Assembly: GCF_040784935.1 (NCBI RefSeq)
Contig: NZ_CP160680.1
Span: forward strand, 434,001 to 498,000
Source of the DNA: Lewinella sp. LCG006
GTDB taxonomy: Bacteria; Bacteroidota; Bacteroidia; Chitinophagales; Saprospiraceae
DNA length: 64,000 nucleotides
Reading direction: 5' to 3'
Below the pieces are notes generated by a model. That model worked only from the letters and a program-made list of their open reading frames with translations. It was not told where the DNA came from and did not search any database. Positions 6,044 through 15,539 of the stretch are shown here, one piece after another (position 1 is the first letter of the stretch; each line of letters starts with the position of its first letter). The position numbers and the translations under genes were made by a program.

Positions 6044-9000
6044 CTATGGTATGGTCAATTGGATAAAGAATCCGTGGTCTGTGTTGATCTCTAATTTTGC
6101 GCCAATTTCTTTAGCCCTCATCCGTAAATTTGAGTGTCCCAACCCAGAATTTTTGAGCACATTGCTCTTTATACGGCCATTGTCCTGGATGATCAATTGC
6201 ATCCCATTTCGTCCGTGTTTTTGAAAAGTGATTTGGCAATTGTCGCCATTAGAATGCTTGGCAGTATTCGTAATGGCTTCTTTACAGATCAGGTACAGGT
6301 TTTGCCGAATTTGAGTAGGCATATTTTTGTCCAAGGAAACGTCAATAATTTTCAGCTCGAAATGGATGTCTTTTACCTCCAGCGTTTCTGCGGCATGCTC
6401 CCGAATGCGATCCAAAAGGTTTTTGAACTTGTCTTTTCGAGCATCAATTGCCCAAACGGTGTCTCTCATTCGAGACATGGCATTTCTGCTCATTTCACTA
6501 ATCCGTTGCAATTTGGGTTGACGATCTTCTGAAGCGGTCTGTGCCAGAATTTCTGTCTGCATCGTTAGGCCTGCCAATACACTACCTACATCGTCATGTA
6601 AATCACTGGAAATTTTGACGCGAATACGTTCAATTTTTAAGGCTTGCCGTAAGCGATACATGGCAATGCTGTAAATAATCGCAGAGATCGCAAATAGAGA
6701 GATGGTATAAAACCACCACGTCTGCCACCAAGGTTTTTTGATAGCTATGTTTAAAGCATAAGCTTGTTCATTCCAAACACCGTCTGAGTTGGAAGCTTTT
6801 ATCTTGAACAGGTAATCACCAGGTGGTAAGTTTGAATAACGGGCAAAGCCATTCTTTTCAGCATCTACCCAGTCATCTTCATGGTTTTCGAGTTGATATT
6901 GAAGCCGATTGTTTTCAGGGTCACTATACTCTAGCGCTACAAAATCAAAGGAGAGGGTGTTTTCATTGTACGCTAATGACAACTCCTTGAGTTCGCCAAT
7001 TTGTTTTGCCGTTGCAAACGGCTCATCATTAACCTGTAAACGTGTTATTTGTATCTGTGCATGATGAGGCGAATTTTTAATGCGCTCTGGCGAAAACCGA
7101 TTCATGCCCTTGGTGCCACCCAGCCAGATTTCACCATTACTCGTTTTCAAAAAAGCATTGGTGTTGTACTCATAAGCCTGTAAACCATCGAAAAGCGTGT
7201 AACGATGATGCCTTTTTTCTTCCGGGAAATAACGAATGACGCCTCTGTTACAACTCAACCAGAAGCTACCCGAGCTATCTGGTATAATGCAGTAGTAACT
7301 TTCATTAGGCGCACCACTAGTGGCTTCATTGAGTAAGTCATTGGTTCCATCCTGCTTGTTTACTTTAAGCATCCCCGTAGAGGTAGCGATCCATAAAAAC
7401 TGCTTTTCCTCATGGTAGTCTTTGGCATAACCAATCCCTTCAATTTGACGGCTTACACTGTATTTGTGCTCATCTGTTTGTAAAACTAAAAGCCTGGAAG
7501 CATCTACCGCTAAATACAGTAGCCCCTCCTGTGTCTCATAAATGGAGGTTGCCAACGCTTGTTGGAGTTCTCCAAGCGAGTGGAAAGGCGTAAATACAGC
7601 TTCGTGCTCCAAGATGGTCAACTCATAAATTCCCGAGTACGTAGCAAAAAGAGTGCGCCCATCTCGAAGCTGATAAACATATAGTATGTAGTTGGGTAAA
7701 TCTTGAATATATTCAAACTGACGTAATGCCTTATTCCATTTTAGTAATTGGCTTGTGCCGACTGCCCATAGATCATTCTTTTTTTCAAAGAAAAATTGGA
7801 TGGATGGTTTATCGGCTAAAAGTATAGAAGTAAGTTCTTCGTTCTTTTCAACTGTTGGATAATAAGTGGTATAGCCCCTAGAGTAGCTGCAAAAAATTTC
7901 TCCTTGGCTGGTTTCAAAAATGGCGGCAATGTTTTGACCAATAAATTCGTCTACAACAGCGAATTTTTGCTTGCTTAAATTGGTATAATTTACGCCAGAT
8001 GAAAAGCTGCTTATCCAGATGTTTTCTTGATGGTCCTTGTATAATTTATTGGGTATCCTGATGCGCAAGCCCAGCTTTTCAGGATTGTCAGCAGGGATTT
8101 GCCCAATAAACTGCCCAGTTTTTCTATTGAAAATCAGTATACCCAGCCTTGAACTAGCGACCCAGCGTATAGAATCATTGATACTAACCGTCGAATTAAC
8201 GCTCCCTATCTCAAGGCCGTTCAACTCATCGAGGATGCGATACTGGTTCGTCTTGGGGTGGAAGATGACCAGCCCTTTTTTAGCTCCTAAATACCAAACA
8301 TCGTCTTTGTCTTCCTTTACGCTGGCAAGGTGGATGATTTCCATTGCGGGCACCTCCGCTTGCTTTCCGTCAAAAGCAGCACGAACGTGGAAGGGGGGCT
8401 GGGTGTCCAAAATACTAATTCCCCGGGCTCTGTTTATATTACAGGAAACGACCTGCTTAAGCTCCCCTTTGTCATCCAATACAGGGAAATTGTGCTGGCC
8501 ATCAATAGCACATAAAGCGAGTGCTGTTTTATCATCAACATCAAACAAGTAGAGCCTGCCTTTAGCGCCAATTCCTACTCTGACCCACAATTGTTGTTGT
8601 CCATTCCTGTCGAGATGAAATGCGTGGTAATCCTCCTTAAGCAATACCCCCTTGTCGTCTTTGATTTGAAATCGCTGAAAATGATCCTGTTCTCTGTTAT
8701 AACAATGGATACCTTCATAGCTCGTAAACCATAGATTGGTTTGCTCGTCTTCGTAAAAATTACTGGTAATGATATTGCCCAGTAGACTAGTGGAATCGCC
8801 CGAAATGGATTTGTAAACTTTTACTGATTTGCCATCAAAGCGATTTAAGCCGTCTATCGAACTCAGCCACACAAAGCCTTTGGAGTCGTGGTAGATGAAA
8901 TTGTTTGAGGCTTGGGATAAACCTTCTTCCGGAGAGAGATAATGGAAGGTATGGCTTTGAATTTGGGCGTAAAAAACACCAGGGCTGATCGCGAGTAATG

Positions 9001-9046
9001 CGATCAGCCACAGCAGTGGGACGTTTATTTCATGATTGCTAATCAA
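6044..9046 (-). CDS. Sensor histidine kinase with beta-propeller and Y_Y_Y periplasmic domains
   Basis: A 1000-residue one-component-length sensor. An N-terminal hydrophobic segment (residues 10-27) exports about 700 residues of two-component regulator propeller repeats, seen as recurring GxxWxSSxxGLxRF-type blades such as KGFVWLSSIDGLNRFDG. A Y_Y_Y domain follows (about 675-760), ending NLPPGDYLFKIKASNSDGVW, then a membrane helix (about 770-792), a HisKA_3 domain with SSDLHDDVGSVLAGL (phospho-His near residue 816) and HATPase_c (CKEAITNTAKHS). The cytoplasmic half is of the NarX/LytS type that partners NarL-type regulators, and such a regulator is encoded upstream at 9843, with one unknown gene between. 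Propeller-Y_Y_Y sensors often detect glycans or other periplasmic ligands; the ligand is unknown. Confidence 0.93.
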   Translation of the reverse strand: MISNHEINVPLLWLIALLAISPGVFYAQIQSHTFHYLSPEEGLSQASNNFIYHDSKGFVWLSSIDGLNRFDGKSVKVYKSISGDSTSLLGNIITSNFYEDEQTNLWFTSYEGIHCYNREQDHFQRFQIKDDKGVLLKEDYHAFHLDRNGQQQLWVRVGIGAKGRLYLFDVDDKTALALCAIDGQHNFPVLDDKGELKQVVSCNINRARGISILDTQPPFHVRAAFDGKQAEVPAMEIIHLASVKEDKDDVWYLGAKKGLVIFHPKTNQYRILDELNGLEIGSVNSTVSINDSIRWVASSRLGILIFNRKTGQFIGQIPADNPEKLGLRIRIPNKLYKDHQENIWISSFSSGVNYTNLSKQKFAVVDEFIGQNIAAIFETSQGEIFCSYSRGYTTYYPTVEKNEELTSILLADKPSIQFFFEKKNDLWAVGTSQLLKWNKALRQFEYIQDLPNYILYVYQLRDGRTLFATYSGIYELTILEHEAVFTPFHSLGELQQALATSIYETQEGLLYLAVDASRLLVLQTDEHKYSVSRQIEGIGYAKDYHEEKQFLWIATSTGMLKVNKQDGTNDLLNEATSGAPNESYYCIIPDSSGSFWLSCNRGVIRYFPEEKRHHRYTLFDGLQAYEYNTNAFLKTSNGEIWLGGTKGMNRFSPERIKNSPHHAQIQITRLQVNDEPFATAKQIGELKELSLAYNENTLSFDFVALEYSDPENNRLQYQLENHEDDWVDAEKNGFARYSNLPPGDYLFKIKASNSDGVWNEQAYALNIAIKKPWWQTWWFYTISLFAISAIIYSIAMYRLRQALKIERIRVKISSDLHDDVGSVLAGLTMQTEILAQTASEDRQPKLQRISEMSRNAMSRMRDTVWAIDARKDKFKNLLDRIREHAAETLEVKDIHFELKIIDVSLDKNMPTQIRQNLYLICKEAITNTAKHSNGDNCQITFQKHGRNGMQLIIQDNGRIKSNVLKNSGLGHSNLRMRAKEIGAKLEINTDHGFFIQLTIP

Positions 9047-9122: not shown

Positions 9123-9767
9123 CTACTCATTACCATAAGTACCACCACAATTGGGAGGGCAGGGTAATAAACTCAGGCTTGAAGAAACTTGATTGTTGTT
9201 ATAATTTACTTGCCCAATAATGGTTCTATGAGTATCTGTAGTGTCGTTAAACTTCACGTCAATGACCTCGAATAGTATATCATCGAAATCGTTGCTGGTG
9301 AAAAAGCTATCGTCAAATAGTACTTTAAGCCCCATTTGAGAACTGTCTACCTGACGAATTTCATTCAGTTTATCGACTATTTCTGGCCCTGATCCTGCTG
9401 CCACAACAAGGTATTTTGCAAGATCAGTTGGAACTCGTTCTACACCATCAACTTGAACAGCGCCATTAATGGGAACAGCACCCTGCTCATTACTGGCCAG
9501 GCAAAAATGGTTGGCCTCTACTAACTCATCATTGCCATTAACACCCAAGGCTATCATAATCAATTCATTGTTACGGGCTGCTGGATAGATCCGGAGGCTA
9601 TCACATTTATTTTTTTTGCATAAATCTAATAGGCCCTCTCTGCTAAAGGTAGCCGATAAATCAGAAACAGTGCCTGAAACGGATTGAATAGATTTTTCAT
9701 CAGCTGCTCTAAAATTGTCGTCTAATAAAGTACTGCTCGGTAAATTAACTTCAACTGTCTTTCCCAT
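9123..9767 (-). CDS. Unknown 214-residue protein between sensor and regulator
   Basis: Not recognised. It is soluble and acidic, with no signal peptide or membrane helix. The N-terminal third is polar, the middle is alpha/beta (KYLVVAAGSGPEIVDKLNEI), and the C-terminus is beta-rich, ending in the striking tail LLPCPPNCGGTYGNE with two close cysteines. Gaps of 75-76 bases separate it from the response regulator (upstream) and the kinase (downstream), all on the minus strand, so one transcript is plausible. The position suggests a signalling accessory or effector of this two-component system, but nothing in the sequence proves it. ATG at 9767 is the only sensible start. Confidence 0.6.
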   Translation of the reverse strand: MGKTVEVNLPSSTLLDDNFRAADEKSIQSVSGTVSDLSATFSREGLLDLCKKNKCDSLRIYPAARNNELIMIALGVNGNDELVEANHFCLASNEQGAVPINGAVQVDGVERVPTDLAKYLVVAAGSGPEIVDKLNEIRQVDSSQMGLKVLFDDSFFTSNDFDDILFEVIDVKFNDTTDTHRTIIGQVNYNNNQVSSSLSLLPCPPNCGGTYGNE

Positions 9768-9842
9768 GATGTGTGGTTTTAGAATGTTTTAAATAAAATC
9801 CTTGATGCTTTATTTCTTTTAAACCCGCCTTATGACAAGCGA

Positions 9843-10481
9843 TTACAGCTCACCATCCATTACTTTTTTAATCACTTCCATCTTGTTATTAACCTCCAGG
9901 GTACGGTAAATCCTCTTGATGTGATCTCTGACGGTGTCTAAAGAAATATCCAATTTATGACCGATCATTTTGTAGGACAATCCGTCTACTAATCCTTGAA
10001 CGATTTGTTTTTGGCGTTCCGATAGCTCGTCTCCTTGTTTTTTGGCTTTAGGCATAAAACGTTCCGCAATCTTCCTCGCTATGGTAGGAGACATATAAGA
10101 CCCACCTCGGGAAACGGTAAAGATGGCTTCCTGGATTTTTGTAAGCGGTGTCCGTTTTGAGATATAAGAGCACGCGCCTGCGCAAAGCGCATCGTAGATT
10201 TTATCATCTTCCTCAAATGTAGTCAAGATGATGATGTCTATATTGGGGTATTTCTGGCGAATATGATAAATGCCTTGTATGCCAGACATGCCGGGCAGCC
10301 CAATGTCTAATAACATAACATCTACCAGAGGTTTCCTGAAAGACTGTGCCATTTCTAAAAAAGCCTCTACGCTGGTAACGCTAGCTGTTAGCTCAATAGA
10401 CGGATGCTGAAGTAGGAAGGTTTCCAAGCTTTCCTTGATGACTGCATCATCTTCTATGATAACTAATTTGATTTCTTGCAT
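9843..10481 (-). CDS. NarL/LuxR-type response regulator
   Basis: A 212-residue two-domain regulator. The receiver domain has acidic pair D11-D12, phospho-acceptor D59 (LLDIGLPG), switch T87/T88 and K109 (SYISKRTP). The output is a LuxR-type helix-turn-helix at about residues 144-190 (LSERQKQIVQGLVDGLSY...DTVRDHIKRIYRTLEV). The start is taken at 10481 (MQEIKLVIIEDD), not 10520, because the -7 box TACCTTTG ends at 10486, five bases before that ATG, so the transcript is nearly leaderless. HisKA_3 kinases pair with this regulator class, and such a kinase lies downstream. It probably regulates its own promoter and the divergent operon through the palindromes described below (inference). Confidence 0.93.
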   Translation of the reverse strand: MQEIKLVIIEDDAVIKESLETFLLQHPSIELTASVTSVEAFLEMAQSFRKPLVDVMLLDIGLPGMSGIQGIYHIRQKYPNIDIIILTTFEEDDKIYDALCAGACSYISKRTPLTKIQEAIFTVSRGGSYMSPTIARKIAERFMPKAKKQGDELSERQKQIVQGLVDGLSYKMIGHKLDISLDTVRDHIKRIYRTLEVNNKMEVIKKVMDGEL

Positions 10482-10485
10482 ACTA

Positions 10486-10493
10486 CAAAGGTA
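10486..10493 (-). promoter_or_regulatory. -7 box TACCTTTG of the response regulator promoter
   Basis: An exact match to the Bacteroidota -7 consensus TAnnTTTG, read on the minus strand, five bases before the regulator ATG. No TTG-type -33 box is visible about 19-21 bases upstream, where the palindrome at 10517 lies instead. This suggests activator dependence. Confidence 0.65.
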
Positions 10494-10516
10494 ACAAAGC
10501 AGCACCTGGCAGTTGT

Positions 10517-10532
10517 CCACATTTTGATGTGG
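10517..10532. promoter_or_regulatory. Palindromic operator, regulator-side copy
   Basis: CCACATTTTGATGTGG is a 6-bp inverted repeat with a 4-base centre. On the minus strand it reads CCACATCAAAATGTGG, identical to the copy at 10607. It lies exactly 23 bases upstream of the minus-strand -7 box (10486-10493). A NarL-type dimer site is likely; the neighbouring regulator is the obvious candidate. Confidence 0.7.
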
Positions 10533-10606
10533 GTACGCGAAACAGAGCCTACTACTTGATGTATGCCTTGTGCTGTTCTTCCGTTTTCATAAAAAAAATG
10601 CGCCAT

Positions 10607-10622
10607 CCACATCAAAATGTGG
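10607..10622. promoter_or_regulatory. Palindromic operator, GNAT-side copy
   Basis: CCACATCAAAATGTGG, the exact inverse of the site at 10517, again exactly 23 bases upstream of a TACCTTTG -7 box (10646-10653). The two 23-base spacers share no sequence, so the matching distances point to function. The palindrome centre would lie near -42 to the start of transcription, where class II activators bind. Confidence 0.7.
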
Positions 10623-10645
10623 ATTCCCTCCCTGACTCCCCCCCA

Positions 10646-10653
10646 TACCTTTG
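10646..10653 (+). promoter_or_regulatory. -7 box TACCTTTG of the GNAT-like operon
   Basis: Same octamer as the divergent regulator promoter; matches TAnnTTTG. It lacks a recognisable -33 box. It would give a leader of roughly 75 bases before the ATG at 10736. Confidence 0.65.
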
Positions 10654-10735
10654 TCCTATCAGCAATTGAAAAGGAATCGAAGTAGTGAAAAGGAAAACTT
10701 CGATCTTTTTCAGAACCACCTAAAACCTGTCAACC

Positions 10736-11329
10736 ATGAAGATATTTCCTGTCATGCGACCATTACGAACCCAGAAATCTCGTGAAAATTTTTCCGACAT
10801 CTATTATAAAGCTTCAAGTTTACCAATTCCTGACCACTATTTACATGATCCCAATAACATCGTTTTGGGTATCTATTGGAATCAGGAATTGATCGGGGGC
10901 TTTATTCTGGGTAAAAGTTCCCATTTGAGAACTATTGAGCTTTTCGCCAAGGAAGACAAGCATGAGCTGCTCTACCAACAGCTACATGATAAAGGCGTAT
11001 GCACAGAAATTTGCTGCTTCTGGATCAAGAAAGAGGTACGCACTAAAACGACCCTTAATTTTTTCATTTGGCTGTCTATGGCTTACGCGCTCAAGCGGTA
11101 CGCTACGGCTCATATTGTTTTCGGAACCTGCTCTCGCTCCTTGGCGCGTCTGTATGCAGTCACCACTAAAGTGAAGTTCCTCAGTCAGGACTTTATCAAC
11201 AGGAAACCCACTTTTATCTTTTGGGGCAAGCAACGGTATGCTATATCGGGCATCTCCGAGATTGTTTTTTATAAGCTGAAGCGGATTTTGAAGATGGCTA
11301 AGAGATCTCAGTCACTTACCTCCATTTAG
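10736..11329 (+). CDS. Putative GNAT-fold acyltransferase-like protein
   Basis: A 197-residue protein of unknown function. Its order of predicted elements fits the GNAT fold: strands around VLGIYWNQELIGGFILG, a strand TEICCFWIKKEVRTK in the beta4 position, a long helix (TTLNFFIWLSMAYALKRY), strand HIVFGT and helix SRSLARLYAV, the usual beta4-alpha3-beta5-alpha4 core. The canonical Q/R-x-x-G-x-G/A loop for the CoA pyrophosphate is not obvious, so catalysis is uncertain. Autoinducer synthases share this fold, but LuxI-specific residues are missing. It is the first gene downstream of the palindrome-controlled promoter and so is probably co-regulated with the divergent response regulator. Confidence 0.5.
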   Translation: MKIFPVMRPLRTQKSRENFSDIYYKASSLPIPDHYLHDPNNIVLGIYWNQELIGGFILGKSSHLRTIELFAKEDKHELLYQQLHDKGVCTEICCFWIKKEVRTKTTLNFFIWLSMAYALKRYATAHIVFGTCSRSLARLYAVTTKVKFLSQDFINRKPTFIFWGKQRYAISGISEIVFYKLKRILKMAKRSQSLTSI

Positions 11330-11642: not shown

Positions 11643-11960
11643 ATGAAAAACAAGAATTCGGAAAAAGAACTTTATTACATCAACTTTACCAATGAATTGA
11701 CAGATGTGAGTAGTGTTTATGTAGAAATGCAGCACGATTTCACTCATACCTCTTATTGGACAGCGAGTGCGGTAAAGGACAATTCCGTGCATTACAGGCC
11801 TTATTTTCAATCCTACCATTACACTGTTGCTGTATACAGAGCGGACAATGGGACGGAAGGCCCACACATAGCAAGTTTTCAATATGCTTGCTGTAAAGAT
11901 GCTAGTGTGACTATTACCATCCATGGAACATCCTCTAAGCCTAGCTTTACGGTTTCGTAA
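11643..11960 (+). CDS. Unknown 105-residue beta-rich protein
   Basis: Not recognised. It has no signal peptide and no membrane helix. It is rich in Tyr, Thr and Ser with alternating strand patterns (SVYVEMQHDFTHTSYW, YHYTVAVYRAD, ASVTITIHGTSSKPSFTV), which suggests a small beta-sandwich. Paired cysteines lie in FQYACCKDA. It sits 47 bases before the 240-residue unknown protein and probably shares its transcript, ending at the terminator at 12758. A size and strand pattern of this kind also occur in small membrane-binding or lectin-like proteins, but no motif settles it. Confidence 0.55.
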   Translation: MKNKNSEKELYYINFTNELTDVSSVYVEMQHDFTHTSYWTASAVKDNSVHYRPYFQSYHYTVAVYRADNGTEGPHIASFQYACCKDASVTITIHGTSSKPSFTVS

Positions 11961-12007: not shown

Positions 12008-12730
12008 ATGTCAGATTACAAATTTTCAGTCTCAAGCCCACCAACATTAAAGGATCAAGGTGTTGATTTTGTAATTCATCACCCAGAATTCCCCGATGTT
12101 CTTAAATCGTACAATATCTCCATTCCAATGCCTCAACCGCCGAATTTTATCGCCTTCGGCTTAGATTTACCTGAAACGGTTAAAGGAGTGTTGAAAAGTC
12201 AAAATGTATGGAAACGATTGGGAGAGGTAAGAACAATAGCTACTAAAGAAACCCTTACTGTAACAGAAACGATAACGCAAAGTCTTACGGAAACAAGAAG
12301 CTTAAGAGCATTGATTCGCTTGGCTGTCAGTGCAGAAGCAAATGGGCTTTTTGCTTCTGCAAAAGCAGAATTAACTGCTGAAGTGGAAGGTACAATTCAA
12401 ACCCAAGAGAATTGGACTAAAGAAACAACACACACTAGAACTATTGAGACCCAACCAGACAGAACCTATGCCTTCTGGAATCTTTTAAATCGGGTATCCT
12501 TTAGTTATTCTTCCTCCGATCTACAAGATATTATTACTAAAGTTGAAACCCTTATCCGAAGCAATAATAAAAATGATAAAGCTAAGGAGATATTAGCGAG
12601 TGCTACTAATTACCTTAACAAGATAAAAACGCTTAAGGAAATGGAACATAAAAGCGACTTGCTGTTTCATTATTTTGAAGATCATATGGACAATGATCAT
12701 GCTTTATTGGCTAGAATGCAAGGTTTCTAA
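12008..12730 (+). CDS. Unknown 240-residue protein with an aerolysin/ETX-MTX2-like segment
   Basis: No family was recognised with certainty. Residues about 75-160 carry two long Thr/Ser/Glu-rich alternating stretches (TKETLTVTETITQSLTE and NWTKETTHTRTIETQPDRT) around a small-residue core (LIRLAVSAEANGLFASAKAE). This resembles the amphipathic insertion hairpin of ETX/MTX2 beta-pore-forming toxins. The C-terminal 80 residues are helical (EILASATNYLNKIKTLKEM). No signal peptide is present, so release would need lysis or another route. Last gene of the divergent operon, followed by a strong terminator. Alternative: a structural beta-protein with chance resemblance. Confidence 0.5.
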   Translation: MSDYKFSVSSPPTLKDQGVDFVIHHPEFPDVLKSYNISIPMPQPPNFIAFGLDLPETVKGVLKSQNVWKRLGEVRTIATKETLTVTETITQSLTETRSLRALIRLAVSAEANGLFASAKAELTAEVEGTIQTQENWTKETTHTRTIETQPDRTYAFWNLLNRVSFSYSSSDLQDIITKVETLIRSNNKNDKAKEILASATNYLNKIKTLKEMEHKSDLLFHYFEDHMDNDHALLARMQGF

Positions 12731-12757
12731 TACGCAATAACACGGAGAATTCTATCA

Positions 12758-12790
12758 GAGGCTGCCCCACCATAGGCAGCCTCTTTTTTA
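12758..12790 (+). terminator. Intrinsic terminator of the GNAT-like/unknown-protein operon
   Basis: A 9-bp GC-rich stem GAGGCTGCC / GGCAGCCTC with an 8-base loop followed by TTTTTT, 27 bases after the stop at 12730. Confidence 0.9.
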
Positions 12791-13193: not shown

Positions 13194-15002
13194 ATGTTCA
13201 GATTATTTTTCAGCCTACTTATTACGAGCATAATCTTTAGTACCTCATTGGGGGCACAAAGTGCAGAGAACCCCGAAGCATGGGCTTTTCGTTATGTCTC
13301 CAGCAACTTTCAGTGGCCACTTGATAACAATTCAGGGCTGGCCCGCGATGATTTCAATGGAGGGCTCCAATTCGAATATTTTCGATTCCTCAACGACAAC
13401 TTTGATGTAAGTTTTCCATTTCGGATAGCTTCCGCCCAACATCCTCTTGACGCTACCGGTAGCAGAACCAGACAGGCCGTTAATTTTGGTCTGGATGTGC
13501 TACTCAATCTAAACCTTTACAAAGGTGATGTTTTCCGCCCGCGCTTATTTGCCGGGGTGGGTGGCCTACTTCTAGAGACCGATGACTTGTCTTTGGACGT
13601 ACCTATGGGACTGGGCTTAGACTTTTACCTTGGACGTAACACCTCCCTCTCAACCACCTTTTCCTACCATTACAACAGCGTTGATTTCCGCGATCACTTT
13701 ATGGCAGGTATAGGTTTCCACATTGCTGTGGATGATTACGACCCTCCCGCACCTGTTGTCAAAGACCGAGATGGTGATGGTATCGTTGATGCAGAAGACC
13801 TTTGTCCTAACACCCCTGGTATTGTAGCCCTCAACGGCTGCCCCGATAAGGACGGTGACGGCATCAAAGATAGCAGTGACAAATGTCCGGACACTCCTGG
13901 CATTGCTAAATTTGAAGGTTGTCCAGATACCGATGGTGATGGCTTGATGGATAGCGAAGACAAGTGCCCGGAAACAGCCGGACCTATAGACAATGAGGGT
14001 TGCCCCATCACCGACCGCGATGGCGACGGTGTAGAGGACGCCCAAGACAACTGCCCTGACGTAAAAGGAACAGTAGCCAACAATGGCTGTCCGACCTCAC
14101 CAATGATCGTTACGGCCAAAGACAAAATCACCGGCGAAGTATTGCCCGACACCGAAGTTGCCCTCCTTGATGGCAGCGGACAGGTTGTAAAAACAGGCAC
14201 GACCAACAGCCTGGGCGTAGTAGAATTTGCCAACGTGGAGCCTGGTAACTATACCATCCAATCTAAGCTTTACGGCACTGCACTGGAAGAAGGAACAATT
14301 GCGGCCAGCGATTTCAATACTTCTACTTCCGTACAGAAAACGGTCTACTATAATGACCCCAACTTTATCATCAAGGGCAAGGTGTTCTATTGTAATAGTC
14401 CGAACCCCCTACCCTCTGTATCCCTCAACCTGAGCAACAATGCTACGAACTTTATGAAAACAACAATCTCTAAGAGCAATGGAGAGTTTGTTTTCTACCT
14501 GGACAACCGTGCCGTTTACGAATTGTACGCCAAGAAGGAAAGCTTCCTTTCGCAGGTGGTCAATGTGGATGCGAAGAACTACGATCGCTCTAAGTCGGTA
14601 TTTGTGCGGTTAGAAATCTGTGCCGATGAAGTGAAGTGTGGTGATGCCATCAATCTGGAAAATATCCTTTACGATACCGGTAGTGCGGCCATCCGACCTG
14701 ATGCAGAACCCGACTTAAACAAGGTGGTTCAATTCATGAGAGACAATACGGATGCGAAAATAGAATTGTCGTCCCATACCGATAGTCGGGGGCAAGCTTC
14801 ATCCAACCTTGCACTGTCTCAACGCAGAGCAGAAGCGGCAGCCAACTATATCATCGCTCAAGGCATTGCTGCTTCACGGGTGATTGGTAAAGGTTATGGA
14901 GAAACCCAATTACTCAACAGGTGTGCTGATGGCGTCAATTGTAGCGCTGCGGAACACCAGGTGAATCGCCGTACGGAATTTAAGGTGATCTGTCCGGAGT
15001 AA
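13194..15002 (+). CDS. OmpA-family protein with TSP3 repeats
   Basis: A 602-residue envelope protein. Signal peptide MFRLFFSLLITSIIFSTSLG, an N-terminal eight-strand-type barrel (about residues 25-180), then Ca-binding thrombospondin type 3 repeats (about 185-305) with recurring DxDGDGIxDxxDxCPxTPG units. Two carboxypeptidase-regulatory-like beta-sandwich domains (about 305-480) follow, and a C-terminal OmpA peptidoglycan-binding domain (about 485-600) with SHTDSRGQASSNLALSQRRA and NRRTEF. It anchors the outer membrane to peptidoglycan, with a calcium-stiffened periplasmic spacer. Such proteins are abundant in Bacteroidota. A long hairpin terminator follows. Confidence 0.95.
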   Translation: MFRLFFSLLITSIIFSTSLGAQSAENPEAWAFRYVSSNFQWPLDNNSGLARDDFNGGLQFEYFRFLNDNFDVSFPFRIASAQHPLDATGSRTRQAVNFGLDVLLNLNLYKGDVFRPRLFAGVGGLLLETDDLSLDVPMGLGLDFYLGRNTSLSTTFSYHYNSVDFRDHFMAGIGFHIAVDDYDPPAPVVKDRDGDGIVDAEDLCPNTPGIVALNGCPDKDGDGIKDSSDKCPDTPGIAKFEGCPDTDGDGLMDSEDKCPETAGPIDNEGCPITDRDGDGVEDAQDNCPDVKGTVANNGCPTSPMIVTAKDKITGEVLPDTEVALLDGSGQVVKTGTTNSLGVVEFANVEPGNYTIQSKLYGTALEEGTIAASDFNTSTSVQKTVYYNDPNFIIKGKVFYCNSPNPLPSVSLNLSNNATNFMKTTISKSNGEFVFYLDNRAVYELYAKKESFLSQVVNVDAKNYDRSKSVFVRLEICADEVKCGDAINLENILYDTGSAAIRPDAEPDLNKVVQFMRDNTDAKIELSSHTDSRGQASSNLALSQRRAEAAANYIIAQGIAASRVIGKGYGETQLLNRCADGVNCSAAEHQVNRRTEFKVICPE

Positions 15003-15185: not shown

Positions 15186-15539
15186 CTACTGCTCGTAGTA
15201 GAAACGCTCGTGTACGATCTGGTCGCCTTCCCACTTCTGGACGGCTACCTGCTCCATCTTTACGCGGTTGCCATCCTTGAAAGTGACTTCCATCATAGAC
15301 TCTACGAAGGTAGTACCATTGGCTTCGTCGGAACCGATGCCCGTAATCTGTAGATCATGGAATTCCTGAACGCTGTTCAAAAACTGCACCTCGTAATCAC
15401 GGCAAACTGCTTTGCTCTCACGCGTACCACGTGGCTCGGTCATTACTACGTTATCAGCATAGTACTTGTCGAAGGCCTCCAACAATTGGCCTTGGCCAAG
15501 CATGTTGTAAATATCTTGTGCTTTTTCTAAATAAGTCAT
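15186..15539 (-). CDS. SnoaL-like / NTF2-fold protein
   Basis: A 117-residue soluble protein with the SnoaL-like cone fold pattern: N-terminal helix MTYLEKAQDIYNMLGQGQLL, then DKYYADNVVMTEPRGTRESK, then beta strands ending in KMEQVAVQKWEGDQIVHERF. The closing motif W-x-x-G-x-I-x-x-E-R-F-Y-Y is typical of this superfamily. Members are small-molecule isomerases, hydrolases or ligand binders; no substrate can be assigned. Single gene, convergent with OmpA. Confidence 0.85.
   Translation of the reverse strand: MTYLEKAQDIYNMLGQGQLLEAFDKYYADNVVMTEPRGTRESKAVCRDYEVQFLNSVQEFHDLQITGIGSDEANGTTFVESMMEVTFKDGNRVKMEQVAVQKWEGDQIVHERFYYEQ

Follow-up and report, generated by a model that had tools for sequence, protein, structure and literature searches.

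Response regulators of the NarL/FixJ type with a LuxR-type helix-turn-helix (HTH), such as NarL, VraR, DesR and RcsB, combine a receiver domain with a GerE HTH domain and bind an inverted-repeat operator. In these systems, a HisKA_3 kinase is encoded on the same strand and in the same neighbourhood as the regulator. In class II activation, the activator is centred near -41.5 or -42.5, as at sites of the lux-box type. Sigma-ABfr promoters of Bacteroidota carry TAnnTTTG at -12 to -5 and an often weak -33 element, according to three published reports (PMC6847099, PMC7366714, PMC9723704).

The locus described here shares the regulator domains, the inverted repeat and the kinase arrangement of the NarL/FixJ systems, but its operator is CCACAT(C/G)AANATGTGG and its promoter is of the Bacteroidota type. 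As in class II activation, the operator abuts the -33 region at a fixed spacing and the -33 element is weak or absent; unlike class II activation, the promoter would be read by the Bacteroidota sigma factor (TAnnTTTG), and the operator centre, predicted at about -43.5, would lie about one base further out. The -7 box is shared with Sigma-ABfr promoters, while the regulator mRNA has a predicted leader of zero length. A word search of the open-licence literature returned no NarL-type operator with this geometry in Bacteroidota and, at the level of search listings, no ATGTGG half-site associated with LuxR-type response regulators. The regulatory principle is familiar, and we did not find this switch and its fixed geometry described in the open-licence literature searched. 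To the extent that sequence can show it, the locus would be a new regulon within a known class; the interesting extension is a broader rule for promoters.

Two divergent promoters with the same palindrome

The window analysed here is a 64,000-nucleotide stretch of the Lewinella sp. LCG006 genome. Between a response regulator gene and a FeeM-like gene it contains two CCACAT-N4-ATGTGG palindromes, at 10517-10532 (minus strand) and 10607-10622 (plus strand). Each of these predicted operators reads CCACATCAAAATGTGG towards its own promoter; the mirror symmetry therefore includes the central four bases. Across spacers of 23 nt (10494-10516 and 10623-10645), each is followed by a -7 box TACCTTTG, at 10486-10493 on the minus strand for the regulator and at 10646-10653 on the plus strand for the FeeM-like operon. 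The sequence-only reading had claimed that the two divergent boxes are preceded by identical palindromes at equal distance, and the arrangement CCACATCAAAATGTGG - 23 nt - TACCTTTG is indeed exact on both sides. Its claims that the spacers share no sequence and that both promoters lack a -33 TTG were likewise borne out: the spacers are identical at 6 of 23 positions (counted by hand), which is chance level, and no TTG occurs 17-23 nt before either box. Measured against the Sigma-ABfr pattern, both window promoters have the TAnnTTTG box, and the -33 TTTG/TTG is absent from both.

In F. johnsoniae, the -7 box spans T-12 to G-5, as given in PMC6847099. With this numbering, and hence a transferred transcription start, the palindrome would extend from -51 to -36 and be centred at -43.5, which is close to the position near -42 proposed earlier. 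The bases after the palindrome fall at -35 to -33, which places the operator directly against the -33 region.

The exact CCACAT-N4-ATGTGG palindrome occurs twice in the whole genome (7,507,556 bases), only as the pair in the window. Allowing up to two mismatches gave 6 matches in the window (2.57 expected), and only the two promoter copies had none. When the whole unit was searched in the same genome with up to three mismatches, we found 20 matches (10 forward, 10 reverse) versus 16 (10 and 6) for a reversed control; apart from the two perfect sites, none stands out, and this search revealed no wider regulon in this genome. Rfam gave no match to an RNA element in 9700-10900. Looping between the two operators was also considered and dropped because their distance is not conserved (90 nt in the window, 98 nt in L031, 81 nt in L032 and 106 nt in L036).

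The regulator (9843-10481, minus strand, 212 aa) is a NarL/FixJ-type response regulator with a receiver domain (PF00072, 71.5 bits versus a cut-off of 30.2) and a C-terminal GerE/LuxR-type HTH (PF00196, 49.7 bits versus a cut-off of 23.5). Its nearest solved chains are VraR and NarL, and its best solved relatives also include ChrA and DesR. The sensor histidine kinase gene (6044-9046, minus strand; start codon uncertain) encodes Reg_prop/Y_Y_Y and HisKA_3 domains. Between the two lies a gene for a 214-aa protein (9123-9767, minus strand) that ends in LPCPPNCGG and matched in 5 of 199 Saprospiraceae genomes, all five of which have the regulator. Neither Pfam nor NCBIfam assigned a family to this protein or to the other members scanned. 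Proteins of ~180-260 aa occupy the same place in other genomes (L031:3581-4219, L032:11726-12394, L112:7135-7797, L115:6794-7573 and L144:5562-6110). By eye, these in-between proteins appear to repeat a 'GIRFY'-like module, and their C-terminus reads LPCPPxCG; this motif stands at or near the end of 6 of the 9 aligned, at alignment identities of 15-64%. Those of other genomes may be distant relatives of the 214-aa protein.

The regulator ATG follows its -7 box after 4 nt, in the window as well as in 15 of the 16 members of the regulator clade described below, and after 5 nt in L092. The A of the ATG would consequently lie at or next to +1, and the regulator mRNA is probably leaderless. Given this predicted start, the start codon is likely the ATG at 10481 rather than the GTG at 10520 of the automatic ORF list. 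Leaderless mRNAs account for 5.5% of those examined in F. psychrophilum, and ~3.7% of leaders in B. thetaiotaomicron are shorter than 10 nt, according to the same group of reports (PMC6847099/PMC7366714/PMC9723704).

The divergent gene (10736-11329, plus strand) encodes a 197-aa protein whose sole Pfam match is FeeM (PF21926, FeeM N-acyl amino acid synthases), over residues 32-141; the score of 26.3 bits (E 7e-6) is below the family cut-off of 27. A FeeM match at E<=0.01 was present in 6 of 19 homologues and absent from 13, and a profile of the 19 homologues retrieved only two sequences from the PDB, polyamine and other acetyltransferases, at E 0.1-0.14. 'Acyltransferase-like' is therefore a fair description, and no more. 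This is the protein that the sequence-only reading called 'GNAT-like'. No copy of the protein was found in the plasmid collection searched. Two ORFs on the same strand, of 105 aa (11643-11960) and 240 aa (12008-12730), are possible further members of the operon for which no family was found, and a terminator-like hairpin (12757-12784, plus strand; 10 pairs, 7 of them GC) could close it. A likeness by eye between the 240-aa protein and an operator target in L051 was discarded as unsupported (BLASTP E 0.06). The 105-aa and 240-aa ORFs have no match in the sister genome L031, where the OmpA/TSP3 gene at 13194-15002 and the short gene after it (15186-15539) are kept at 90% and 97% identity.

Conservation of the site and its link to the regulator

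We defined a strict site as the palindrome, 23 nt and NAnnTTTG. Among 199 Saprospiraceae genomes, this site gave 54 matches in 24 genomes, compared with 1 match in 199 for a reversed-pattern control, and was present in 19 of 112 sampled genera. In a sample of the order, 10 of 87 Saprospiraceae genomes had it and none of the 211 from other families did (rows counted by hand). In a sample of the class, it was found in 2 of 295 genomes, namely that of the window and G666. A bestrophin gene contains the palindrome in G666 and likewise in G185, a genome of the family sample, and we took these two sites as chance. A chance origin of the site as such is contradicted by the genome-, family-, order- and class-wide counts.

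The spacing proved nearly invariant. Scanning gaps of 10-40 nt between palindrome and ANNTTTG, with spacings counted from coordinates, we obtained 68 rows: 54 at 23 nt, 5 at 22 nt, 2 at 24 nt and 7 distributed over 28 other spacings (reversed control, 3). In one of these 7 (G182:C41), the box is the second one after a site that already has a box at 23 nt. These counts place the site at a fixed position next to the -33/-35 element, as expected of class II sites. Positions of the box that the search pattern left free nonetheless show preferred bases (T at position 1 in 36 of 54, C at position 4 in 32 of 54), so the boxes look like those of real promoters. Furthermore, the palindrome is polar with respect to the promoter: its centre is xAAx in 43 and xTTx in 3 of 56 sites, and TT directly follows it in 27 of 56, compared with 3 of 56 at the mirror position. 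Over all loci, a TTG 17-23 nt before the box occurs at 13 of 56 sites.

The site tracks the regulator. A regulator of at least about 59% identity is encoded in 18 of the 199 genomes, and the strict site was found in 17 of these 18 compared with 7 of the other 181 (Fisher p 3.6e-18, with genomes counted regardless of kinship and the cut-off set after seeing the list). In one of the 7, G019, the site stands directly before a regulator of 53% identity, and two others (G187 and G196) belong to the same genera as genomes possessing the regulator. No explanation was found for the sites in G061, G066 and G104, and that in G185 is the bestrophin match; some strict sites are chance matches.

In a tree of 84 regulators (5 of 89 rows were omitted for having fewer than 190 residues), 16 formed one clade with an SH-aLRT value of 96. 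L212 was excluded from the set of regulator upstream regions, its locus having been fetched for another reason than the regulator. In each of the 16 clade members, the start codon is preceded by the palindrome at 50-52 nt; the match is exact in 14 and has one mismatch in G193 and two in G133. Within the clade, the palindrome arms have a mean pairwise identity of 0.97; the corresponding values are 0.28 for the 40 nt that precede the palindrome and, over 13 rows of equal length, 0.33 for the spacer. The conservation of palindrome and distance upstream of orthologous genes, on which the sequence-only reading had staked its prediction, is thus observed for the regulator: the operator persists in every clade member, degenerate in two.

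The same holds for the divergent partner where the regulator is present. The FeeM-like protein matched in 20 of the 199 genomes, and in 11 of these the palindrome precedes a FeeM-like gene; 10 of the 11 have a close regulator ortholog. All 10 genomes that combine a FeeM-like gene with a regulator of at least about 59% identity have the palindrome before a FeeM-like gene, compared with 1 of 10 genomes that lack such a regulator (G187, a draft 84% complete; p 1.2e-4). Eight of the 18 genomes with the regulator gave no FeeM-like match. In 4 of the 10 genomes that have both (the window, L031, L032 and L036), the two genes lie side by side and diverge, and head-to-head gene order is less widely conserved than the palindrome. 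Site, spacing, conservation, and association with the regulator clade and the FeeM-like gene all emerge directly from these comparisons.

In G157 (L035), the regulator gene has an internal TGA, and the adjoining FeeM-like gene has the decayed palindrome CTGCATCAAGATGTAG with its box still 23 nt away. Second FeeM-like copies in G186 and G157 are without the site. In L046 (G125), the FeeM-like gene matched as two pieces ~1.2 kb apart, the first still behind the operator.

Proposed action of the regulator

Since the palindrome stands before the same two genes in relatives, that of the regulator and that of its partner, it very probably serves as the switch of this regulator. Our main reading, to which we assign a probability of about 0.8, is that the regulator activates its own, probably leaderless, operon together with the divergent operon from a class-II-like site at about -43.5. 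Insofar as sequence can decide, the sequence-only reading was thus right in outline. A signal would cause the kinase (6044-9046) to phosphorylate the regulator (9843-10481), and a regulator dimer would bind both palindromes at about -51 to -36. The bound regulator would adjoin the place of the -33 element and would recruit RNA polymerase, with the primary sigma factor of Bacteroidota, to promoters in which a good -7 box is not accompanied by a -33 TTG. One promoter would then drive the regulator, the 214-aa protein and the kinase (i.e., positive autoregulation) on an mRNA that begins at the ATG or immediately beside it, and the other would drive the FeeM-like gene, probably along with the two ORFs that follow it up to the hairpin at 12757. 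What we infer is that the regulator binds the site, that its action depends on phosphorylation by the neighbouring kinase, and that it activates and does not repress, the last from the position and fixed spacing of the site. The system offers a direct and cheap test case for activators that work on promoters without a -33 element.

The regulator could instead bind the palindromes and repress both operons, with a kinase signal releasing negative autoregulation. Divergent regulator-target pairs are often repressed, a site that abuts the -33 region could block RNA polymerase, and the sequence does not show whether regulation is positive or negative. We nevertheless regard repression as unlikely, since a nearly invariant 23-nt spacing is easier to reconcile with RNA polymerase being contacted than with its being simply blocked, and the same goes for the polarity of the palindrome centre (43 xAAx and 3 xTTx among 56) and the missing -33 TTG in the window promoters.

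It is more improbable still that another transcription factor, rather than the adjacent regulator, binds the palindromes. Less related regulators, including L204 of the window's own genome, do have the same TVRDHIK stretch in the recognition helix, and some genomes have the site without a close regulator ortholog; against this, the site precedes the regulator gene in 16 of 16 clade members, follows the presence of the regulator across genomes (17 of 18 versus 7 of 181), and is replaced by variant palindromes at the same place in the promoters of some paralogs. Finally, that the identical, inverted 16-mers are a chance or non-regulatory repeat, arising by mirror duplication of one promoter or as inverted repeats of a mobile element, is hardly credible: spacers that agree at only 6 of 23 positions argue against recent duplication, the genome holds no further exact copies, and the site persists where regulator and FeeM-like gene are separated (L040, L042 and L046) as well as in G133, which has them on separate contigs and a degenerate copy before its regulator.

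Candidate regulon and paralogous regulators

Activation from this site may extend to further genes in relatives. Our survey of the fetched loci, at spacings of 21-25 nt, yielded 56 sites; no gene was called behind 4, and the other 52 precede 11 FeeM-like genes, 11 regulator genes and 30 other genes. A Pfam scan of 30 proteins of these operons, a subset, identified 3 fatty-acid desaturases in three genomes and 3 proteins with a Por secretion tail; 11 proteins had no Pfam match, and single proteins had H-type lectin, F5/8-type, fascin, ricin-type lectin with MACPF, thioredoxin or VWA domains. The desaturases lie behind the operator at L036:1943-3028, L130:2309-3271 and L143:2395-3381, and L140:3392-6472, behind the operator in one relative, encodes a MACPF protein with ricin-type lectin repeats. 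The targets in other genomes include many that are mutually unrelated, and we offer lipid modification plus secreted or surface proteins as a possible theme of the regulon, not as proof of one. Starting from a bare sequence observation, the analysis arrives at a regulator with its putative operator, at a promoter geometry and at a candidate regulon, across many Saprospiraceae genera.

The same distance recurs with other palindromes before some paralogous regulators. In 69 regulator upstream regions without the CCACAT palindrome, we searched for 6-N4-6 palindromes 12-35 nt before TA..TTT[GA]. Seven perfect palindromes were found (e.g., TCACATCATCATGTGA, CTACATGATCATGTAG and TCCCATGTTTATGGGA), five at 23 nt, two at 22 nt and none at the other 22 offsets, compared with 0.00-0.10 per offset in shuffles that preserve base composition and boxes, not dinucleotides; two of the seven come from the sister regulators L110 and L162. 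When one mismatch was allowed, there were 8 at 23 nt, 4 at 22 nt, 2 at 21 nt and 6 over other offsets, and 57 of the 69 paralogs had no palindrome with up to one mismatch 22-24 nt before the box. As all seven perfect palindromes stand at 22-23 nt, at least some other regulators seem to have their own operator there. This links the position to regulators of this type and suggests that some paralogs bind their own palindrome variant. The variant half-sites TCACAT, CTACAT, TCCCAT and CCCCAC occur 22-23 nt before the -7 box in L110, L162, L152, L180, L187, L198, L170 and L165, the L152 and L165 palindromes with one mismatch each.

The outer half-site bases seem to vary with the recognition-helix residue after TVR: all 19 rows with D have C outside, and all 6 rows with T have at least one T. 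We take this residue to correspond to a base-contacting residue of NarL. Helix 9 of RcsB and DegU makes, or is modelled to make, base contacts, as reported in PMC5829831 and PMC9263151. Tentatively, these observations could reflect a NarL-type module of Bacteroidota in which a palindrome 23 nt before TAnnTTTG replaces the -33 element, the regulator is translated from a leaderless mRNA, and the outer bases of the half-site depend on which residue comes after TVR (CC for D, TC for T and CT for F). If such a portable module were real, sequence alone would be enough to predict operators and regulons for many orphan regulators, and the FeeM-like target would add a self-amplifying N-acyl signal or lipid circuit. 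The residue-to-base relation corresponds to a single independent change on the tree and is therefore without statistical support. Together with the mixed outcome of a search for TCACAT sites, this led us to reject the helix code as an established rule and to keep it as an idea.

That search combined TCACAT-N4-ATGTGA with a 23-nt spacer and TAnnTTTG; matches were present in 5 of 199 genomes, 9 sites in all. One precedes a TVRT regulator (L227), and the other eight are not before a regulator of this kind. Five of the nine (L225 and L230-L233) are in G149, suggesting a second regulon of the same geometry in that genome, whose regulator reads TVRSH.
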